Shown: one piece after another, positions 50,290-60,388 of the stretch | Layout: every line of letters begins with the position of its first letter | How positions within the stretch are numbered: the first letter of the stretch is position 1 | Source of the DNA: Rhizobiaceae bacterium | Lineage (GTDB): Bacteria; Pseudomonadota; Alphaproteobacteria; Rhizobiales; Rhizobiaceae | Direction: 5' to 3' | Assembly: GCA_029212415.1 (NCBI GenBank) | Contig: JARGOF010000009.1 | Span: 18,578-82,577, forward strand | Length of the DNA stretch: 64,000 nucleotides | Program-made: the position numbers and the translations under genes | Notes under the pieces: model-generated | Database searches by the model: none | Seen by the model: the letters and a program-made list of their open reading frames with translations, nothing else | What the model was told of the DNA's origin: nothing

Positions 50290-50331
50290 ACATTTGCTAC
50301 TATTGAACAAGCGTTCAATAGTAGCAAATGT
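50290..50331. promoter_or_regulatory. 19-bp perfect inverted repeat containing TetR-type operator
   Basis: Arms ACATTTGCTACTATTGAAC (50290-50308) and its exact reverse complement (50313-50331) flank AAGC. The centre, TATTGAAC-AAGC-GTTCAATA at 50301-50320, recurs at 60064-60083. The repeat ends 11 bases before the Rieske gene, so a bound protein would block translation or initiation. Typical for TetR-family regulators. Confidence 0.75.
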
Positions 50332-50341
50332 TGGTAAGGTC

Positions 50342-51559
50342 ATGAAACACCCGGAATCCAAGAGAAAAACGTCTATTCCAAAGGACTGGAACAGGGGCGG
50401 CCTTCCTGGATGGACCTACCACAGTGATGTGTTCCTTAAGCTGGAAAAGCAGGCGATCTTTGGCAATCACTGGCAGATTGCCTGCCATGTTTCCGACATT
50501 GCGGAAAGGGGCAGCTATCTTGCATTTGACGTTTGTGATGAACGCGCACTGATTGTGCGCGGCCAGGATGATGAGGTCCGGGCTTTTCACAACCTGTGCC
50601 GACATCGCGGCTCGCGGCTGGTTTCAGATGAGGCCGGCCAATGCAAGAGTGCGCTTGTTTGCCCTTTCCACGGATGGGTTTACAATCTGGATGGCACATT
50701 GCGGGGGGCCGCCCGACCTGAAAGTTTTCCGGCTTTTGATAAAAGCATGTTTGGCCTGAAGCCGCTTGAACTGGAGATATGGAACGGTTTCATTTTCATA
50801 CGGTTCGCCAAGGGCCCGCAGCCCTCCGTCCGTGATCTGATGCAGCCCTTTGCCGAAGAAATGTCGCATTATCGCATGGCCGATATTCTGCCAACGGATG
50901 GAATGTGGTCGCAGACTTCACCGGTGAACTGGAAATCGGTGCGTGATGTCGACAATGAGGGCTATCATGTGGCGCTTGCCCACCCGGCGCTTCAGGATCT
51001 TTATGGTTCCAGTTACTACGATGAGCCATTCATCGATGGTGTTTGTCGTTCCTATGCCGAATGCAACAGCAACGGCGGACGACGCTGGAGTGTCAAGCAT
51101 TACACCAGGCTTCTTGCGCCTGGTGAAAGCCTGCCGGAAACAATGAAACGATCGTGGATCTATTACACATTGTTTCCCAATGCCGTCATTGCGGTCACAC
51201 CGGAACTGGTTCAGTTCTATCAGGAGTTTCCCCTGTCCACCGGTGAGACCCTGCTGCGCGGAGCAATCTACAAAAACCCCGATGAGACAAGGCAGCAAAG
51301 GCTTGCCCGCTACCTGGCCTATCGCATTGACCGCGATACGATGGCCGAAGACGTGCAACTGACCCAATGGTCCAATGAAGCCATGACCTCCAGCGGTTTT
51401 GAGGGCTTCTACCTGTCTGATCTGGAATATGGGGTAAAAACGCATCATGACCTGATCCGGCGCGCGCTGCCGGTCTCAACGCTTGATCAGCAGCCTGGTG
51501 AGGATGCAATCGGACCATTGAACGATCAAATGCTGTTGCATGAGACAGCCGTGGACTGA
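50342..51559 (+). CDS. Rieske non-heme iron oxygenase, alpha subunit
   Basis: 405 residues from ATG 50342, immediately after the inverted repeat. The Rieske cluster is CRHRG...CPFHGW (two Cys, two His). The catalytic domain has WKSVRDVDNEGYHVALAHPAL, where Asp and the two His bind mononuclear iron. The overall form resembles the glycine betaine, stachydrine and carnitine oxygenases, which N-demethylate or cleave quaternary amines, more than ring dioxygenases. No ferredoxin or reductase partner is adjacent, so it must use one encoded elsewhere. The neighbouring methyltransferase-BetI-like, aminotransferase and GMC genes favour an amine substrate. Confidence 0.85.
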   Translation: MKHPESKRKTSIPKDWNRGGLPGWTYHSDVFLKLEKQAIFGNHWQIACHVSDIAERGSYLAFDVCDERALIVRGQDDEVRAFHNLCRHRGSRLVSDEAGQCKSALVCPFHGWVYNLDGTLRGAARPESFPAFDKSMFGLKPLELEIWNGFIFIRFAKGPQPSVRDLMQPFAEEMSHYRMADILPTDGMWSQTSPVNWKSVRDVDNEGYHVALAHPALQDLYGSSYYDEPFIDGVCRSYAECNSNGGRRWSVKHYTRLLAPGESLPETMKRSWIYYTLFPNAVIAVTPELVQFYQEFPLSTGETLLRGAIYKNPDETRQQRLARYLAYRIDRDTMAEDVQLTQWSNEAMTSSGFEGFYLSDLEYGVKTHHDLIRRALPVSTLDQQPGEDAIGPLNDQMLLHETAVD

Positions 51560-51562
51560 GAA

Positions 51563-52939
51563 TTATCCGTTCCAGATCCCTTCTGATCGCAGATCATCCA
51601 TGGTGCGCGAAATGCCCTCATGCAAAATGCCGGCCATGTCATCAATCTGTTCTTGCGCAATGATGAGAGGGGGCGACATGACACACATATGGATGAGGGG
51701 TCGCACCAGCAGGCCCAATTCCTGGCAATGACGATCGATGCGCGCGCCCACTTCGGTATCAAGACGAAGCGGATTTCTGCTCTCCTTGTCGGCCACGCAC
51801 TCAATACAGGCCATCAGCCCCATGCCGCGGACCTCGCCGACAAGCGACAATTCTTCCAGCGACTTGAGCCTGTCCTGGAAATGGGGCGAAACGGATCTGG
51901 CGTTGTCGATAATGCCGCCTTCCAGCAGATCAAGGTTTTTCAGTGCCACAGCGCATCCGACGGGATGGCTGGAATAGGTCAGTCCATGGGCGTACATGGC
52001 TTCCGGGTGGTTTGAGGCCCGCAAATCCTCCATCAGTGCGGCAGAGACCATCATGCCGCCCAGGGGAAAATAGCCCGAGGTCACGCCCTTTGCGAAGGTG
52101 ATGATATCCGGCACCACATCAAACATTTCCCGCGACGCAAAAATGTGACCCAGCCTGCCGAAGGCGGTGACGACTTCATCTGCGATGAAGAGGATTTCGT
52201 TCTGGCTGCAGATGTCTCGGATGCGCTTGAAATAGCCCTCCGGCGGCACGATGACGCCGCCCGATGCCAAGATGGGTTCTCCCACAAAGGCCGCAATATT
52301 TTCCGCGCCATGATCGGTGATCGCCTGTTCGAATTCCGCAACCAGATGGTCAGCAAAAACCGCCATATCCATCCCTTCAGGCCGCCTGAAGGGATCCGGG
52401 TTGGACAGTTTGATGAACAGATCGTCTGCATAGTCCATCCAGTCCCGGTTTCTTTGGCTGCCGTTGAGCGAGGCCGAAAGATAGGTGCTGCCATGATAGC
52501 CGCCTTCTCGGCACAGGATCTTCTTCTTTGATGGCCTGCCTCTGACATTGTTGTAAAATTGTGCGAAGCGAAGGGCGCTTTCAATGGCTGTTGAGCCGCC
52601 GGTGGTGAAGAACACATGTTCAAGGTCACCGGGTGCATGCTCTGCCAGTCTCGAAGCCAGTTCGATGGCGGGTTCATTGCTGGTATACCAAGGCGAATTA
52701 TAGGACAGTTCCATCGCCTGTCTGTAGAGCGTATCGGCCATTTCCTCATTGCGATGGCCGACATTGGTACACCACATGCCGGCCGGACCGTCGATCAGCC
52801 AATTATCCTTATCATCACGCACATAGACACCGCTGCCAGCGCCTATGATGCCTTGCTTTGCACGACCGATCGAACCGGCGCAAGGCCATGGCTGGACAAG
52901 GTTTTCCGGCTGCGGTCCATCTTTGGAAATGCTGGTCAT
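51563..52939 (-). CDS. Class III (omega) aminotransferase, PLP-dependent
   Basis: 458 residues; ATG 52939 overlaps the stop of the fusion gene (ATGA). Core motifs [28 protein letters not shown] (Asp holding the PLP ring nitrogen) and the Schiff-base lysine in [15 protein letters not shown]. The omega/class III group acts on amino groups far from a carboxylate: putrescine, beta-alanine, 4-aminobutyrate, taurine. With a Pot-type importer nearby a diamine or aminoalkanoate is reasonable, but this is inference. Confidence 0.88.
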
Positions 52940-54459
52940 CGGCGGTCCTTTTGTTCAATCAGGGTTCCGTCCTCGTGAAAATGCTTCGGGAACAGCGTTC
53001 CAAGTGTTTTCAGGGAGGTCTCCAAAGCCGTTTTGCGCTTGAAATCCCTGCCTGCCAGCATCAGCCGCAACCACAATCCTTCCTGCAGTGCATAGATGGA
53101 CGTTGCTATGGCCTTCGGTTCGAAATTGTATCCGGCTTCGGTTTTCAATCCCTGGCACAGATCGCGCAGGGTCCCCAGAAAATCATCGTCACGTGCCCAG
53201 CACAGTTTGCGGTAGGCCGGGCGTGTTTTTGCCTCGGACAGGAAGGCAAACCAGGTGGCAATCTTGCGGGTGTTGCAAACGTGGTTGTCAAAATCGGCGA
53301 CAATCATGGCCCGCAGTTGCGCTGCCGGATTGTCCGCGGCCTTTTCTATGGCGGTTTTCCAGTGAAGGGCGTAATCATCCGCCATGAACTGCAATGTTTC
53401 GATGAACAGCCGTTCCTTGCTTTCAAAATGGAAATTGGCAATTCCGCGCGACAAGCCGGCGCCCTTGGTCACATGGGCCATGGTCGTTTCCGCATAACCG
53501 CGCGTGGCGATGGAATCGATGGTCGCACCGATCAGTTGTTGTTGCCTGAATTCCCTGGATGCCCTGCTACGCGCCGGCACGGCGTTGCTGCTGTGCTGTT
53601 TTTGCTCTGCGGGAAGGGACGGTGCGCTGCCCGCTTTGGCCAAAGGCGGTTTCGTTGCAAACAGATGGGTCGGGCGATGCTCGCCGCTCTCCAGCACCAC
53701 CAGCATGGCGGCCCATGTTTGAATGTTCTTGTCGACATAGGATTTGCCGACGGCTTCGCAGGCAGGTTCGTAGAGGGGCCCTTTCAATTGCTCCAGTTCA
53801 GCCCTTGCCGTCTTGCGATACCAGGCATTGCGGTTGACGCGTTTGATTTCGGCAAGGCCCGCCAGTTGCATGGCGCGTTTGGTGCGTTCGGGCGAAGCCA
53901 TGCCAAAACTCAAACCTTCCGCCTTCAGATAGGCGCGCATGGCCGCTGAAGGCTGGCCATTATGGGAGGTCAACCAGTCACTGGCGGCAAACGAGCCTCC
54001 CGGCCTGATGATCCGGAAGATCTCCGCAAACAGGGCTTCCTTGTCTGCCACATGAACCAGCGCGTCCTTGGAAAACACGATGTCGAATGTCCCGTCCTCA
54101 AAGGGCAGGGGACCAGGTTCTCCCAAAACGAAAGATGCACGCTCCGTCAGCCCGTTGGCGATATTGCGCGCTTTTGCCCGATTTATGACAGGGTCTTCGA
54201 CATCAAACCCGACAATATGCGCCAGGGGGTATGTTTTTGCCAGATGAAGCGTGGCTCCGCCTGCACCGCAGCCCAGGTCCAATGCGCGTGCACCGGCAAA
54301 GTCGAGATTGGAGACGATCCGGTCAACCTCTTTTGAACCACCGGGAGACAGAAAACCCTCTCCCCACAAAGACTCGAGGAAACGGATGGCCTTATCGTCA
54401 TATTCCGGACCCTGGGTGGTTTCCTGCGCCACTATCGCACCCGCATTTCCAAATTGCAT
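52936..54459 (-). CDS. Methyltransferase fused to BetI-like TetR regulator
   Basis: 507 residues from ATG 54459; the frame extends to 54564 without an obvious start there. The N-terminal half (about 1-285) is a complete SAM methyltransferase of the phosphoethanolamine/sarcosine type: [15 protein letters not shown] (motif I), [16 protein letters not shown] (motif II), [12 protein letters not shown] (motif III), then the family C-terminal [23 protein letters not shown] 35-residue linker leads to a complete TetR protein (about 315-507): [39 protein letters not shown] is the HTH, followed by an all-helical ligand domain as in BetI. No stop or frameshift separates them. Gene is divergent from 54506 and coupled to the aminotransferase. 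Confidence 0.85.
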
Positions 54460-54505
54460 GATGCGCCGTGCTCTGATGTAATCAGTGCAAACGGAGAGCG
54501 TTGCC

Positions 54506-54730
54506 ATGCTGCAGATCGTTTGCGAGACCCATGAAGACGAGGCCCAAAAGCGCCTGTTGAACACACCACCCGGTCCAGCACAGTCCGGCGTTGAGCGTTA
54601 TTCGGCCGCCATGCATTTTTATCAGAACGGCAAGCTTTCCGCAGAGCTTCTCGAGATCTATCGCATCTGCTGCAAACTGGATCATGAGGATCCGATAAGG
54701 GTTGCACGGCTCGAAGGAGTGATTGCTTGA
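54506..54730 (+). CDS. Small protein of unknown function
   Basis: 74 residues from ATG 54506, with GGAGAG seven bases upstream, divergent from the methyltransferase-TetR gene with 46 bases between starts. Cys-containing ([19 protein letters not shown]) and mostly helical ([24 protein letters not shown]). It ends four bases before the convergent serine hydrolase gene. I do not recognise a named family. Its position suggests control by the same operator-binding protein. Confidence 0.6.
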
Positions 54731-54733
54731 AGG

Positions 54734-55921
54734 TCATTGTCCGGCCATTCTGGAAATCTGCTTGAGAAAGGCGACGCCTTGCACATCCAGCAGATCGTCC
54801 TGCGGCAAAGCCTGAGACGACAGTTTGACGATGACAATTTGCGTTTCCGGATCAACAAAGAGCCATTGTCCATGAATGCCGATTGCCAGAAAGGCCAATG
54901 ACGGTCTTGCCAATTGATACCACTTGTTGCGATAGCGCCCGCCGGGCAGAAAAGTGGCGAAATTGCCATTGTTCCAGGCCGCTTCATCACCATTGTGGCG
55001 CATGTCATGTATCCATGCTTCGGGAATGACCTGAACACCATTTGCCGCGCCATGATCGAGCAGCAGGTTTCCAAGCTTCAGCAGGTCGCGCGCCGTGACG
55101 CTGATGCCGCCTGCACTGCGCGGCGTCCCCTTTTGGTCAACCGTGATCAGGGCATCGGAACTGGCGCCCATGGGATGCCACAACAGTTCCTCCATGATCT
55201 GCGCATAATTGGCGCCCGTGCAACGCTCCAGAATGATCCCGAGCAAATCCGAATTGGGCGAGAGATATCGGAACGGACCGCCATGTGGCCCGGGGCCTTT
55301 CGCAATGGAGAGAAGCATGTCTTCGAGTGCTTCATTCGGCCTGCCGGCCAGCGGGGGATTCCACAGGGTTGCTCTTCGATAACGGGCATAATCGCCGTCT
55401 TCGTTGAGATATTCTTCGCTGAAATCAACGTTGGCACGCATATCCAGCAGATGCTGCAAGGCGCAATCGCCATAGCCACCTGACAGGGCCTGCGGCACAT
55501 AGTGGGACACCGGCCTTTGAAAATCGAGTGCGCCCGAATTCTGCAACAGGCCGGCAAGGATACCGGTGAAGGACTTGGAAACGGAGAAGACGATGTGCGG
55601 ACGATCGGCTGTGGAACAGGCTCCCTGCCAGCAAAGGATCGGTTTTCCCGCCTTGGCAACGAGGAAATGATCCGTTTGGGAGCGCTGAAGAAACGACGAA
55701 ACGGTCTCGGGCCTGTCGGAAAGGCGGACCATTTGCGAAAAAAACGCGTCTGAATTGTCTGCTTTGAGCGCATCTGCGGGTGGCGCGCAGGCACGTATGA
55801 TCGACGATGGGACAAGTTCAACTACATTTTCAAATGCCCATTGGCTGTAGGGGCGTTCCCGCCAATTTTGCAAACCAACATCGCTACGGGCAAATCCATA
55901 TTTCTTTTGAAAGTGTTCCAT
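54734..55921 (-). CDS. Serine hydrolase, beta-lactamase / penicillin-binding class C family
   Basis: 395 residues, ATG 55921 after AAAAGGCAGG. Catalytic SxxK in VFSVSKSFTGIL. Downstream, PNSDLLGIILERCTG contributes the second-Ser/Asn region. No signal peptide is evident. Family members include esterases, amidases, D-aminopeptidases and 6-aminohexanoate-dimer hydrolase. It is the last gene of the Pot operon (51 bp after PotD), so it may hydrolyse an imported amide or ester. Confidence 0.82.
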   Translation of the reverse strand: MEHFQKKYGFARSDVGLQNWRERPYSQWAFENVVELVPSSIIRACAPPADALKADNSDAFFSQMVRLSDRPETVSSFLQRSQTDHFLVAKAGKPILCWQGACSTADRPHIVFSVSKSFTGILAGLLQNSGALDFQRPVSHYVPQALSGGYGDCALQHLLDMRANVDFSEEYLNEDGDYARYRRATLWNPPLAGRPNEALEDMLLSIAKGPGPHGGPFRYLSPNSDLLGIILERCTGANYAQIMEELLWHPMGASSDALITVDQKGTPRSAGGISVTARDLLKLGNLLLDHGAANGVQVIPEAWIHDMRHNGDEAAWNNGNFATFLPGGRYRNKWYQLARPSLAFLAIGIHGQWLFVDPETQIVIVKLSSQALPQDDLLDVQGVAFLKQISRMAGQ

Positions 55922-55972
55922 GCCTGCCTTTTCAAAGCGCCAGGGGCTGCATTGAGCCCCTGGCCATTGTTC

Positions 55973-57034
55973 TTAAGACTTGAGTTTGGTCCAGACTTTC
56001 TCGCGAAGGTCCTTTGATGCGGGCGAACAGGCTTTGAAAGCTCTCAGTCGCTCGTCATATTCAGCCGGTGTATTGACGGCCGGATCGGCTTTCAAATCCT
56101 CCTTGAGGAACGCGCCCGAGCCATTCACCGCGTTGGAATAACCTGTATAGTTCGAGGCTTCCGCAGCAACTTCCGGTGACATCATCCAGTTGACGAAAAC
56201 TTTTGCCGCTTCCATGTTCGGTGCGTCTTTTGGCACAGCAATCACATCGGTCCAGAAGGTGGTGCCCTCTTTTGGATAGACATAGACAACATCGGCCTTC
56301 TTGGCCTTCACGCGGTGTGCCGCGCCGTTCCACTGCATGTGGACGGGCACCTCACCGGCAACCATACGGTCAATGGTGCCGTCATTGGAGTAGAGTTTCA
56401 CAAAGGGCTTCTGGGCCATGAGGACATCGAGAATTTTCTGTGCTTCGGCGGGATCTTCCGTGCACTTGTCGATGCCGGTGTAATAGGCCGCGGCATTCCA
56501 GACATCGGACATTTCATTGAGCATGGCAATTTTGCCCTTCAGCTCTTCCTGGGGCTCGAAAATCTCTTTCCAGCTCTCTTCCAGTTTGCCGCCGGGAACC
56601 ATTGCAGGATCATAGGTGAAGCCGGTTGTGCCCCACATGTAGGGCGCGGAATATTCGCGTTTCTCATCGCCGGCGATCGAGGTGAAGGCTGGCAGCAGGT
56701 TCTTGAAATTTTCCATCTGGCTGACGTCGATCTTGGCCAGCATGCCCTTGTCGACCATGATTCCAAGGGTCGTGGTACCCGGGAAGATGACGTCGTAGCC
56801 GCCACCGCCGGCCTGCAATTTGGCGAGCAGATCGTCTTCGGAAGCATAATTGTCAACGGTTATCTTGGTGCCGGTTTCCTTCTCGAATTTTTCAATCAGC
56901 GCTGGTGCAAAATAATTCGACCAATTGTATAATCTGAGTTCTCCCTCAGCCGATGCACTGCCTGCAAAACCACCCAGGATGAGGGCTGTGGTCGCAAGCA
57001 ACTTGATGGTCTTGCGCTTGTATTGATTTGACAT
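55973..57034 (-). CDS. potD: Pot-type ABC transporter periplasmic binding protein
   Basis: 353 residues with GGAGG upstream of ATG 57034. Signal peptide about 1-29 (KLLATTALILGGFAGSASA). Mature start GELRLYNWSNYFAPALIEKFEKETGTKITVDNYASEDDLLAKLQAGGGGYDVIFP is typical of the spermidine/putrescine PotD/PotF class. Ligand-binding residues cannot be assigned with confidence. Symbol is given at family level; the ligand may be another amine. Confidence 0.88.
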   Translation of the reverse strand: MSNQYKRKTIKLLATTALILGGFAGSASAEGELRLYNWSNYFAPALIEKFEKETGTKITVDNYASEDDLLAKLQAGGGGYDVIFPGTTTLGIMVDKGMLAKIDVSQMENFKNLLPAFTSIAGDEKREYSAPYMWGTTGFTYDPAMVPGGKLEESWKEIFEPQEELKGKIAMLNEMSDVWNAAAYYTGIDKCTEDPAEAQKILDVLMAQKPFVKLYSNDGTIDRMVAGEVPVHMQWNGAAHRVKAKKADVVYVYPKEGTTFWTDVIAVPKDAPNMEAAKVFVNWMMSPEVAAEASNYTGYSNAVNGSGAFLKEDLKADPAVNTPAEYDERLRAFKACSPASKDLREKVWTKLKS

Positions 57035-57088
57035 TGTGAACCTCCGTCTTGTTTTCAGGCATTGGAATGAATTTCCGCCGGGCCTGAT

Positions 57089-57901
57089 TTACCGGCTCTG
57101 TTCTCGTCCCAAAAAGAGGGACAGGGATACGAGCACCAATGAAAGCAACAGCATCAGTGAGCAAATGGCATTGACTTCCGGGGTTACACCCGTGCGCACA
57201 AGGCCAAAAATGTAGATTGGCAAAGTGGTCGAGCCGGCACCGCCGAGAAAGAATGTGGTGACAAAATCATCAAGGGAAATGATGAAAGCGAGGATGAGCC
57301 CGGATAGAATCCCCGGCAGGATCTGCGGCAAAGTCACTCGGTAGAAGGCTCTGATCGGATTGGCATAAAGGTCGGCAGCCGCTTCTGCCATACGTGGGTC
57401 CATTCCTTCCAGCCGAGCCCGGATTGGCAGATAGGCAAAGGGGATGCAGAAAATGGTGTGCCCGATGATGACGGTGCCAAGACCGAGCGTGAAACCAAGG
57501 CTGGCGAAAAACATCAGGGTTGCGACGGCTGGCACGATCTCCGGAACGGTGATGGGCAGGGCGATCATGGCGTTGAAAGCCGTTTTGCCTTTGAACTTGT
57601 CGGTTGCCATCCGGGTTGCCGCCAGCGTTGCCAGAATGGTGGCACTGATCGAAGCAATGGATGCAATGATCAGGGAATTTGTTGCCGCCCGGATGATGTC
57701 ACGGTTTTCGAAAGCCATGGCGTACCAGTCCAGCGAAAACCCGGTCCATACGGTCACGGTGCGATTTTCGTTAAAGGACAATATAATCAGGATAATGATC
57801 GGCAAATAGACATAGGCAAAGAAGCAGCCCGTGGCGATGAAAAGTCCGGGCCAGTGACGCGCATCGCCCTTGTAGGGTTTTTTGAAACCGGGCAGGCTCA
57901 T
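57089..57901 (-). CDS. potC: Pot-type ABC transporter permease (PotC family)
   Basis: 270 residues from ATG 57901, coupled by ATGA to the previous gene. Six hydrophobic segments with LPITVPEIVPAVATLMFF and the coupling loop EAAADLYANPIRAFYRVTLPQILPGI (EAA motif). PotC partners PotB in polyamine-type importers. The frame extends upstream to 58003, but that part overlaps PotB. Confidence 0.88.
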   Translation of the reverse strand: MSLPGFKKPYKGDARHWPGLFIATGCFFAYVYLPIIILIILSFNENRTVTVWTGFSLDWYAMAFENRDIIRAATNSLIIASIASISATILATLAATRMATDKFKGKTAFNAMIALPITVPEIVPAVATLMFFASLGFTLGLGTVIIGHTIFCIPFAYLPIRARLEGMDPRMAEAAADLYANPIRAFYRVTLPQILPGILSGLILAFIISLDDFVTTFFLGGAGSTTLPIYIFGLVRTGVTPEVNAICSLMLLLSLVLVSLSLFLGREQSR

Positions 57902-58794
57902 TTGCCCACCTGTGCATTTGTCCGGTAGCTCCGTGCGTAGCTGGTCAGCGCGATCATCACCAGCAACAGCAGGAACAGGCCGAGCGCAGCGCCAAATGGC
58001 CAATTGCGGGCGGCGCCAAACTGCAGGCCGATCAGATTGCCGATCATCAGGGTCTTGCCGCCACCCAGCAATTCCGGGGTGACATAGGAACCCAGAGACG
58101 GCACGAATACCAGAATGCAGCCGGCAACCATGCCGGGGACGGCGAGGGGAAAAATGACCCGTTTGAGGGTATGCCAGCGGCTGGCATAGAGGTCAAAAGA
58201 GGCTTCCACCAGCCGGAAATCAATTTTTTCCAGGCTGGAATAGATCGGCAACACCATGAAGGGCATGAAGGAATAGGTCAGGCCGATTGCGACGGCCAAT
58301 TGCGTGTGGAGCAAAGGCAATGGTTCGGAAATGACGCCAAGCCACAACAGGGTGTTGTTGATGGTGCCGTGATCGCGCAGCAGCAGGATCCAGGCATAGT
58401 TGCGCACCAGAAGATTTGTCCAGAATGGAAGTGTCACCATGAAGATCAGCACCGCACGCCAGCGTTGGCTGCGGGTTGCCATGAAAAGCGCGACGGGAAA
58501 GCCCACGATCAATGAAATGGTCATGGTCAGCGCGGACAGCCAGATGGATCTCAATATGATTTTGAAATAACTAAGATTCAGCGCAATTGTCCCGTCCAGT
58601 TCGCGTTCAAAGAACAGCCGCGTATAGGCGTCGAAACTGAACTGCCCCCAAATCACGCCGCCGGAGTAATCGCGTCCCTGTATGGAAATCCAGGCCATCA
58701 GCATGAGCGGAATGACCATGAATATGCATATGGCCAGCGCAGCCGGGCCAATCAGCAGTATACGGAACATAAGTGGCCGCGTGCTTGCTCTCAC
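57898..58794 (-). CDS. potB: Pot-type ABC transporter permease (PotB family)
   Basis: 298 residues from GTG 58794, with GGAGG ten bases upstream inside the end of potA; the longer frame to 58842 overlaps potA. Six hydrophobic segments and the coupling loop EASFDLYASRWHTLKRVIFPLAVPGM. First membrane gene of the importer, immediately after the ATPase. Confidence 0.85.
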   Translation of the reverse strand: MRASTRPLMFRILLIGPAALAICIFMVIPLMLMAWISIQGRDYSGGVIWGQFSFDAYTRLFFERELDGTIALNLSYFKIILRSIWLSALTMTISLIVGFPVALFMATRSQRWRAVLIFMVTLPFWTNLLVRNYAWILLLRDHGTINNTLLWLGVISEPLPLLHTQLAVAIGLTYSFMPFMVLPIYSSLEKIDFRLVEASFDLYASRWHTLKRVIFPLAVPGMVAGCILVFVPSLGSYVTPELLGGGKTLMIGNLIGLQFGAARNWPFGAALGLFLLLLVMIALTSYARSYRTNAQVGK

Positions 58795-58796
58795 CT

Positions 58797-59927
58797 CTAT
58801 TTGTCCTCCAGCACGGAGACTGAGCGGGGATCGACAGACCACCCGATCGCATCACCGGCAACAAAGGGCAGGGTTGTCATGGTGGAGTTCTGGCATCTGG
58901 CCCGCATGGCGGCGCCATTTGGCAAGGTATAATGATAGATCGTATCCGTGCCGTGATAGACGACATTTGAAATCGTACCGGGCAGCTTGCCCTCTGCAGG
59001 CAGGCTCAGGCTGATGCATTCCGGCCGGATGGCCAGTGTGACGCTTTGACCTTGCTGAGCCACCTTGCCATCCTGAACACGAATGGGGCCGGTCTGATCG
59101 ATGGCATAGTCACCGGGCTCACCTGCGGAACCGGACGGGCCTGCTTGCAGCAGATTGATTTCCCCGATGAAGCCGGCAACAAAACGGTGCTGCGGACGAT
59201 CATAGATATCTCTCGGGGTTCCCACCTGGAGAATTTGCCCCTTGTCCATGACCGCAATCCGGTCGGACATTGTCAGCGCTTCTTCCTGGTCGTGGGTCAC
59301 GAATATGAAGGTGATGCCGGTTTCAAGCTGCAGGCGTTTCAACTCCAGTTGCATGTCCTTGCGCAATTGCAGGTCAAGCGCTGAAAGCGGTTCATCGAGC
59401 AGAAGCAGTTTTGGTTTTGGCGCCAGGGCTCGGGCCAGAGCGACGCGTTGTTGCTGACCGCCGGAGATCTCGGTGATGCGCCGGCCAGCCATGCTTTCCA
59501 TGCGAACCAGGCTCAGCATCTCGTCAACGTTCGTTTTGATTTCCGCTTTTGGTCTATTCTGCATTTCCAGACCAAAGGAAATATTCTGGGCAACAGTCAT
59601 ATGCGGAAACAGGGCATAGTTCTGGAAGACCGTGTTGACGGGGCGTTTGAAGGGGGGCAGGTCGATGATGTTTTCACCATTGAGCAATATTGTGCCGCTG
59701 GTGGGTTGTTCAAACCCTGCGATCAGCCGCAGCAGGGTCGTCTTGCCGCATCCGGAAGGCCCGAGAAGGGTGAAAAACTCATTCTGCCGGATATTGATCG
59801 AAACATTGTCCAGAGCCTTGAAGGCACTGTCACCTGCACCAAACACTTTAATGAGTGAAGTTGCGGCTATTGCATCCGGCTGGCCGGTGGATTTTGCCGG
59901 GTCCGCAACCGCGTCGCCAATGATCAA
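58797..59927 (-). CDS. potA: Pot-type ABC transporter ATP-binding protein (PotA family)
   Basis: 376 residues; TTG 59927 with AGGAG nine bases upstream. Walker A GPSGCGKTT, Q-loop in VFQNYALFPHMTVAQNI, signature ISGGQQQRVALARAL, Walker B KLLLLDEPLSALD, switch His in VTHDQEEA; the C-terminal 120 residues form the TOBE-type regulatory domain. Leads the operon potA-potB-potC-potD-serine hydrolase, downstream of the operator at 60064. Confidence 0.9.
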   Translation of the reverse strand: MIIGDAVADPAKSTGQPDAIAATSLIKVFGAGDSAFKALDNVSINIRQNEFFTLLGPSGCGKTTLLRLIAGFEQPTSGTILLNGENIIDLPPFKRPVNTVFQNYALFPHMTVAQNISFGLEMQNRPKAEIKTNVDEMLSLVRMESMAGRRITEISGGQQQRVALARALAPKPKLLLLDEPLSALDLQLRKDMQLELKRLQLETGITFIFVTHDQEEALTMSDRIAVMDKGQILQVGTPRDIYDRPQHRFVAGFIGEINLLQAGPSGSAGEPGDYAIDQTGPIRVQDGKVAQQGQSVTLAIRPECISLSLPAEGKLPGTISNVVYHGTDTIYHYTLPNGAAMRARCQNSTMTTLPFVAGDAIGWSVDPRSVSVLEDK

Positions 59928-60063
59928 GGATTCGTTCTCCTGAAGATGTTGATGTACGAATTTGGTACCTGTTTCAAACGCACTCCATTTGCGACGATCT
60001 TCGCCAAAAGGCTACTGATGAACTTGGCGTTTAGCAAGTCCAACAAGCCGTTTAATCGCAAAT

Positions 60064-60083
60064 TATTGAACATCCGTTCAATA
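60064..60083. promoter_or_regulatory. TetR-type operator TATTGAAC-ATCC-GTTCAATA
   Basis: Perfect 8-bp arms, four-base spacer, 137 bases before the potA start. The arms and spacer length are identical to the site at 50301-50320 before the Rieske gene. It lies in the 461-bp AT-rich gap 59928-60388, which shows no gene. Confidence 0.75.
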
Positions 60084-60388
60084 AATCGACATTTTTTTGA
60101 GCAATAGGTCGTTAAATTAAATCTATTTAAATCAGTATTTTAGGGTGAATCTTCGAAAGTATTCGAGGCGACAAATGTAATTTTTGTAAAAACTTCGGGT
60201 GGGGCCGTCAAACATGCTGTTCGATCACAGGTCAGGGCATTCCTGACGCCGATTTTCGGGATGCTTCAAGTCAATTTTCAGCCGATCCTGAATAGCAGAA
60301 ATCATGTCCCCTGGAACTCAATAATTGTAAATCAAGATGAAATATATGGAGAGCCAATGAGGCCTGTTGTGAGGGGCCAGCAGAAGCA

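Follow-up and report, generated by a model that had tools for sequence, protein, structure and literature searches.

The window analysed here is a 64,000-nucleotide stretch of a genome (G000) from the family Rhizobiaceae. Its minus strand carries a single reading frame that begins with the ATG at 54459, ends with a stop codon at 52936, and encodes 507 amino acids without an internal stop, as claimed in a preliminary description of this DNA, which had read the frame as a methyltransferase followed by a TetR protein. The amine genes that had been assigned to the neighborhood of the fused gene are also present, namely those of a Pot-type transporter, an aminotransferase, and a Rieske oxygenase (Table 1). 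The score of the Rieske protein with the model of GbcA, the glycine betaine monooxygenase, was 140.1 bits, against a cut-off of 670. The small protein of 74 amino acids encoded next to the fused gene had no match in Pfam and NCBIfam; its homologue in SL42 (WP_237371325.1) is annotated as a hypothetical protein, and identity outside the genus is 59% or less. The gene for the serine hydrolase was found only in the two clusters with a fused gene when the window and 46 other loci were searched.

Table 1. Features of the fused-gene cluster, in window positions.
Feature	Position	Strand	Basis or remark
Predicted operator 1, 19-bp arms, 4-bp spacer, core TTGAACAAGCGTTCAA (50303-50318)	50290..50331		before the Rieske gene
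Rieske oxygenase, GbcA/CntA-like; likely start ATG 50342	50294..51559	+	below GbcA cut-off
Class-III aminotransferase	51563..52939	-	PRK07036 score above cut-off; 4-bp overlap with the 3' end of the fused gene
Fused gene, methyltransferase and BetI-like TetR repressor, 507 aa (P0001)	52936..54459	-	reading frame, Pfam, same fusion in L009/G299
BetI-like TetR repressor domain, residues 298-495	52975..53568	-	Pfam, scores, dN/dS 0.043
Linker, residues 276-297, predicted disordered	53569..53634	-	pLDDT < 50 at 276-300; no SD-backed start
Methyltransferase domain, residues 1-275, PMT-like fold	53635..54459	-	Y20 and H136 align with the catalytic dyad of PMT enzymes
Conserved small protein, 74 aa	54506..54730	+	divergent from the fused gene, 46 bp between starts
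Beta-lactamase-fold serine hydrolase	54734..55921	-	family match
PotD-like substrate-binding protein	55973..57034	-	family match
ABC permease (PotC position)	57089..58003	-	position and orthology only
ABC permease (PotB position)	57898..58842	-	position and orthology only
PotA-like ATPase, first gene of the minus-strand run	58797..59927	-	family match
Predicted operator 2, TTGAACATCCGTTCAA	60066..60081		about 146 bp before the potA-like gene

The three domains expected for the fused protein were all recovered by Pfam above the gathering scores: Methyltransf_11 at residues 60-158 (1.6e-21), TetR_N at residues 310-354 (2.7e-9, 37.1 bits), and TetR_C_6, described as "BetI-type" (PF13977), at residues 378-489 (5.9e-18, 65.6 bits). 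An AlphaFold2 model of the protein, built from an input alignment of 14 rows (mean pLDDT 77.6), has a Rossmann-type domain, a low-pLDDT stretch, and then an all-helical domain. Values of pLDDT are below 50 at residues 276-300, and are only 54-70 in parts of both domains. The fused protein is thus predicted to consist of two domains joined by a disordered tether.

A scan of genome contigs revealed the same unbroken fusion in a second Rhizobiaceae MAG (JARGOX010000022.1, referred to as L009), with 93% identity. The same sequence is represented by G299 in the whole-genome set, where tblastn identities were the same. The two fused genes align without gaps, and 472 of 508 positions, including the stop, are identical. 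The whole-gene dS is 0.284, and dN/dS amounts to 0.135 in the methyltransferase, 0.20 in the linker, and 0.043 in the TetR part; these ratios indicate that both fused domains are under purifying selection. An assembly or sequencing error that deleted a stop or shifted the frame would create an apparent fusion, and a stop is indeed present at this place in homologues. Yet such a hidden defect near residues 285-315, named in the preliminary description as the possible flaw of the fusion, is contradicted by the gapless copy in the second species and by dN/dS values well below 1 in every main part of the gene, which makes it very unlikely.

Among 8 genomes of the genus, only the window genome and G299 matched the fused protein at 1e-20, and both carry the fusion; the next-best matches within the window genome were 25-31% identical. 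In a family sample, 76 of 297 genomes matched at 1e-30, which leaves 75 others for comparison. The methyltransferase and TetR genes were adjacent in 57 of these 75, and appeared as separate hits in 43 cases, as same-frame hits with a stop at the junction in 12, and as partial in-frame hits in 2. The remaining genomes had, at the 1e-30 threshold, TetR alone (14), both genes at a distance from each other (3), or the methyltransferase alone (1). When the junctions of the 57 adjacent cases were inspected, a stop preceded TetR in 56, and in the remaining case (G073) the methyltransferase was a remnant. In all, 58 loci were inspected, and both domains were found in 57 of them (one of these, G749, lies outside the 75 genomes), while G073 gave no methyltransferase match at 1e-15. 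A second, overlapping family sample (393 genomes) yielded 14 matches at 1e-120, corresponding to G299 and 13 genomes with a stop; G749, the new member among the 13, was checked by eye. At the class level, 18 of 385 genomes matched at 1e-40, with each place covering essentially one domain, and 7 records of a plasmid collection matched at 1e-30, 2 of which span both domains, each in two pieces.

The fusion is local: two sister species within the Rhizobiaceae carry it. The possibility raised earlier, that homologues are always two separate proteins, therefore holds outside this pair of species but fails for the sister species, where the protein is fused. The accompanying view that each of the two families normally stands alone needs qualification, given that the two genes are neighbors in 57 of 75 other matching family genomes. 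Because of this adjacency, the fusion can be regarded as joining an existing gene pair, and it is accordingly less surprising than had been held.

Two further candidates were considered and rejected. In G067, two hits in one reported 606-aa frame suggested a second fusion, but the fetched sequence contains a stop before TetR. The 12 full-length hits with an in-frame junction stop suggested programmed stop read-through in the relatives. The reading frames of the 43 separate adjacent pairs were distributed 30/11/2, and the total number of in-frame pairs, including the 12 full-length and 2 partial hits, was 16 of 57, which is about chance. Read-through was rejected because in-frame junctions are not enriched over all pairs. 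Some relatives appear to carry damaged genes: the methyltransferase beside TetR looks broken in G217 (L197/L132), where the in-frame piece spans no more than residues 183-271, and also at the G073 locus (L196), and the TetR gene of Mesorhizobium loti UFLA 01-765 (L011:10778-11457) is apparently split over two frames.

In the closest unfused relatives (L106, L108, and L109), the methyltransferase stop is located 65-77 nt before TetR position R299, in another frame. For the best TetR start of each locus, the SD energy ranged from -3.2 to -13.8 kcal/mol in 34 unfused loci. No SD-backed TetR start was found in codons 255-300 of the fused gene, where the SD energy of the two sole internal starts is +0.1 (TTG 273) and +0.3 kcal/mol (GTG 294); the gene's own ATG has a weak SD (-2.1). 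Since the fused linker contains no SD-backed start for TetR, the hybrid is probably, though not certainly, the main form of both proteins and supplies most of the TetR. A shorter product that includes TetR is possible, because the best candidate starts of L009 in a stretch of about 120 codons are SD-like ones (-7.2 and -6.9) inside the methyltransferase, upstream of the linker and 112-116 codons before R299. As far as the reading frame, dN/dS, and the SD test go, the enzyme and the DNA-binding domain would share one chain.

The unfused genes of Rhizobiaceae are part of an island with the recurrent order small< GcvT< FAD1< FAD2< MT> TetR> SBP> transporter< aminotransferase> Rieske<, where MT is the methyltransferase gene and SBP the gene of the substrate-binding protein. 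In 35 family loci, some of which are cut by the ends of the fetched stretches, the small protein (the 74-aa protein of the window) and TetR were present in 35, GcvT, FAD1, and FAD2 in 34, the methyltransferase in 32, the aminotransferase in 29, and the Rieske gene in 16. A full island, such as L106:3255-17864, encodes two CrtO-like FAD proteins and a GcvT-like protein, for which TMAO demethylase was the best NCBIfam match, at a score well under the cut-off of that model; in full islands, the small-protein gene adjoins the GcvT-like gene. The window cluster is shortened and contains neither GcvT, nor the two FAD proteins, nor the operator of the methyltransferase. Elsewhere in G000 and G299, the GcvT partner had only matches of 27-33% identity, and FAD1 had no match at 1e-15 in a search run without a positive control. 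A rhodobacterial cluster on a Fuscovulum ytuae plasmid (L136) combines the methyltransferase gene with genes for a transporter of the polyamine type, two alpha subunits of ring-hydroxylating dioxygenases, an aminomethyltransferase, and a "dimethylsulfoniopropionate lyase family" protein.

Four gene trees (37, 42, 33, and 19 rows) place the fused pair beside L106, L108, and L109, whose islands are complete and whose junctions are out of frame. Support for this group was 0.847 for the methyltransferase, 0.998 for TetR, 0.905 for the aminotransferase (0.99 without L108), and 0.991 for the Rieske protein. G214 (L099), which has a similarly short but unfused island, was considered as an evolutionary intermediate and rejected, as the trees group the fused pair with full-island loci. 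The G214 island seems to have shrunk in parallel; shortening thus seems to have occurred more than once, since it took place there without fusion.

The best PDB matches of the fused protein in a Foldseek search were AtPMT2 and AtPMT1 (27% identical), and the 50 best rows were all on the first domain. Residue conservation was assessed in rows selected by coverage from 46 loci (41 rows for the methyltransferase and 42 for TetR). The SAM-binding motif (D61, G63, G65, and D86) is conserved in 41/41 rows, and the residues of the catalytic dyad, Y20 and H136, in 41/41 and 40/41 rows, respectively. The catalytic Tyr and His and the phosphate-contact residues of PMT enzymes are named in two papers (PMC6705855 and PMC4357015). 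The positions of PfPMT Tyr27, Tyr160, Arg179, and Tyr181 are occupied by L28, W162, E181, and L183, each in 41/41 rows, while Tyr175 is retained as Y177; PfPMT residues were assigned from the spacing of residues and from the alignment with AtPMT2 rather than with PfPMT itself, and Lys247 has no assigned counterpart. Since four phosphate-contact residues are replaced, phosphoethanolamine is unlikely to be the substrate. The original assignment to a phosphoethanolamine/sarcosine type is thus not upheld in its first part, nor in its second, because the score with the model of sarcosine/dimethylglycine N-methyltransferases (NF041675) was 58.2 bits, against a cut-off of 550. The acidic residue that replaces the arginine, together with the adjoining PotD-type uptake system, suggests an amine without phosphate, perhaps a diamine.

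The three-fold higher dN/dS of the methyltransferase, compared to that of TetR, could also mean that only the TetR half matters, and that the other half is decaying and tolerated, the more so as the pathway may have changed in a cluster that lacks the GcvT-like and FAD genes. We consider this improbable, since a dN/dS of 0.135 still reflects strong constraint and Y20, H136, D61, and D86 are intact.

BetI is a choline-responsive TetR repressor. The product of the fused gene scored 111.7 bits with the BetI equivalog model TIGR03384, whose cut-off is 201.3, while another protein of the window genome, a BetI, reached 213.5 bits. BetI as a name for the TetR part is ruled out by this score, and the part is best called a BetI-like paralogue on the basis of the model scores. 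Of the earlier designation as a BetI-like TetR protein, the TetR_N and BetI-type C-terminal domains stand, while identity with BetI does not, the genuine BetI being encoded elsewhere in the genome. A second BetI-like TetR gene, whose product is 31-34% identical to TetR, precedes the methyltransferase gene in L106, L108, and L109, i.e., in 3 of 35 family loci, which are the closest relatives of the fused pair; it is missing from the fused clusters.

A 20-bp site had been proposed at 50301. The site exists, and forms the center of a larger, 42-bp inverted repeat with perfect 19-bp arms. In L009, the arms of operator 1 are 21 bp long, and the one base that differs from the window is changed in both arms. 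The core TTGAAYNNNNRTTCAA occurs as 48 exact sites in 31 of 35 family loci (680,319 bases; the count omits the locus of the fused sister, L093, and those at the class level, L126-L129), and is absent in its exact form from the other 4. The mean for 179 permuted half-sites was 0.106; two of the permuted motifs scored 9 and 5, and both closely resemble the real half-site. When one mismatch was allowed, 70 of 73 sites in the 35 loci were located at the starts of methyltransferase, FAD2, aminotransferase, or Rieske genes, compared to 1 site in all in a control interval inside genes. Such a site was present at 27/32 testable methyltransferase, 28/34 FAD2, 29/29 aminotransferase, and 9/12 Rieske gene starts (the remaining 5, 6, and 3 starts of methyltransferase, FAD2, and Rieske genes, respectively, had none). 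The methyltransferase and FAD2 sites are largely identical, because the two genes are divergent. By its distribution, TTGAAYNNNNRTTCAA marks promoters of a conserved family island. A different inverted repeat, with 23-bp arms and a 4-bp spacer, lies near the left end of the window (position 132) and was the longest found in a perfect-arm scan.

The sites of the window are at 50303 (Rieske gene, plus strand) and 60066 (potA-like gene, minus strand); neither they nor any further site belong to the fused gene itself. Across the window genome, five exact sites have A/T flanks: two belong to this cluster, a third immediately precedes the true betI, and two lie elsewhere. The betI site is a palindrome located between a substrate-binding-protein gene and betI (L150, G000:C25:236106). 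The same palindrome is similarly placed in G085 (L145), where the gene in the position of betI was recognized as BetI-like by eye and its other neighbor again encodes a substrate-binding protein; G085 has no match to the fused gene. As betI itself is preceded by this palindrome, BetI could cross-bind the island sites, and BetI and the fused regulator may share operators. One could go further and propose that the 50303 and 60066 sites are targets of the genuine BetI, and that the fused TetR half has another target, given the palindromes before the BetI gene of G000 and the BetI-like gene of G085. We give this proposal little credence, as 70 of 73 sites are at island promoters within 35 TetR-bearing loci, and 2 of the 5 A/T-flanked exact sites of G000 belong to this very cluster.

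The reading we favor, with a probability of about 0.6, is that the fused protein is a local TetR-type repressor of an amine-uptake and catabolism island, which carries the N-methyltransferase of its operon as an N-terminal domain on a flexible linker. The TetR halves would dimerize on both palindromes and act as repressors of the Rieske gene and the potA-led run, each monomer of the dimeric repressor carrying one tethered methyltransferase. An imported amine or a pathway intermediate would release the repressor, and the methyltransferase half would stay active and methylate a non-phosphorylated amine of the pathway. The fused gene and the aminotransferase gene may be part of the potA-led run, and the protein would therefore limit its own amount. 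Such autoregulation by read-through is a guess, because the fused gene lacks an operator and is separated from the transporter genes by a small open reading frame on the opposite strand. No terminator-like site was found on the minus strand in 54400-60250, and a promoter scan of the same interval returned 6 sites (3.3 in shuffled sequences), none of them at the start of the fused gene. As for the origin of the fusion, the island may have shrunk in this lineage, with the demethylase/FAD-protein block and the methyltransferase's operator leaving the cluster, and the stop codon and the TetR start may have been lost during this shrinkage. By default, the protein can be viewed as two functions on one chain, made 1:1, for which allosteric coupling is not needed.

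The two halves may nevertheless be coupled. In this case, the state of the methyltransferase (SAM/SAH or amine occupancy, or turnover) would alter TetR binding and so set transcription of the amine genes. The adjacency of the two genes in 57 of 75 other matching family genomes is in line with this idea, as are the operator (with at most one mismatch) that marks the promoter of the methyltransferase gene in 27 of 32 testable loci, the intact catalytic dyad, and the retention of the fusion since the species split (dS 0.28). On the other hand, the linker is predicted to be disordered and its dN/dS is above that of both domains, which argues against a tight interface, and in 14 of 75 genomes TetR occurs with no methyltransferase match at the 1e-30 level. 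On balance, we regard coupling as a possible but unlikely alternative. If true, SAM supply or methylation turnover would directly set island transcription, and unfused relatives would run the same logic with two co-regulated proteins.

The regulatory case is now stronger than in the preliminary description. Whether or not its halves communicate, the protein would be a rare enzyme-switch hybrid formed from two usually neighboring genes, and the two fused species and 56 inspected unfused pairs constitute a clean natural experiment on the attachment of an enzyme to a regulator. The conserved operator and island define a testable regulon for an amine-degrading pathway, whose members are the transporter, the aminotransferase, the Rieske oxygenase, the GcvT-like protein, two FAD proteins, and the small protein that belongs to no family. 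Among the papers listed by searches of the open-licence PMC literature, no title or abstract beginning described a methyltransferase-TetR fusion. A strict search for a gene cluster of the island type matched no paper, and none of those listed by a looser search showed one in its title or abstract beginning. As far as these parts of the literature go, the components of the protein are of known kinds, while their combination in one chain was not found.

One of the closest known counterparts is the unfused pair of the Rhizobiaceae island. The genes of this pair are direct homologues, in similar order and with the same operator, but code for two proteins with a stop between them, and most such islands additionally contain the GcvT-like and two FAD proteins. 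PMT enzymes are the best sequence and fold match (AtPMT2/AtPMT1) and share the SAM motif and catalytic Tyr/His with the fused enzyme, which differs from them at the four positions where PfPMT contacts phosphate (L28, W162, E181, and L183). With BetI, the fused protein shares TetR_N, the BetI-type C-terminal domain, and a palindromic operator of similar design; in contrast to BetI, it falls under the BetI cut-off, is encoded outside any bet cluster, and carries an enzyme domain. According to PMC12442346, the betI box of Ruegeria BetI1 is ATTGACG*CGTCAAT and two BetI2 boxes share AAACTTGAAC; these published boxes are related, but not identical, to the island palindrome. A different comparison is with PutA, BirA, and NadR. 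These are trigger enzymes with a DNA-binding domain and established coupling. Like them, the fused gene would encode an enzyme and a transcription regulator in one chain, but the folds are different, and coupling, established in their case, is only hypothetical in that of the fused protein.
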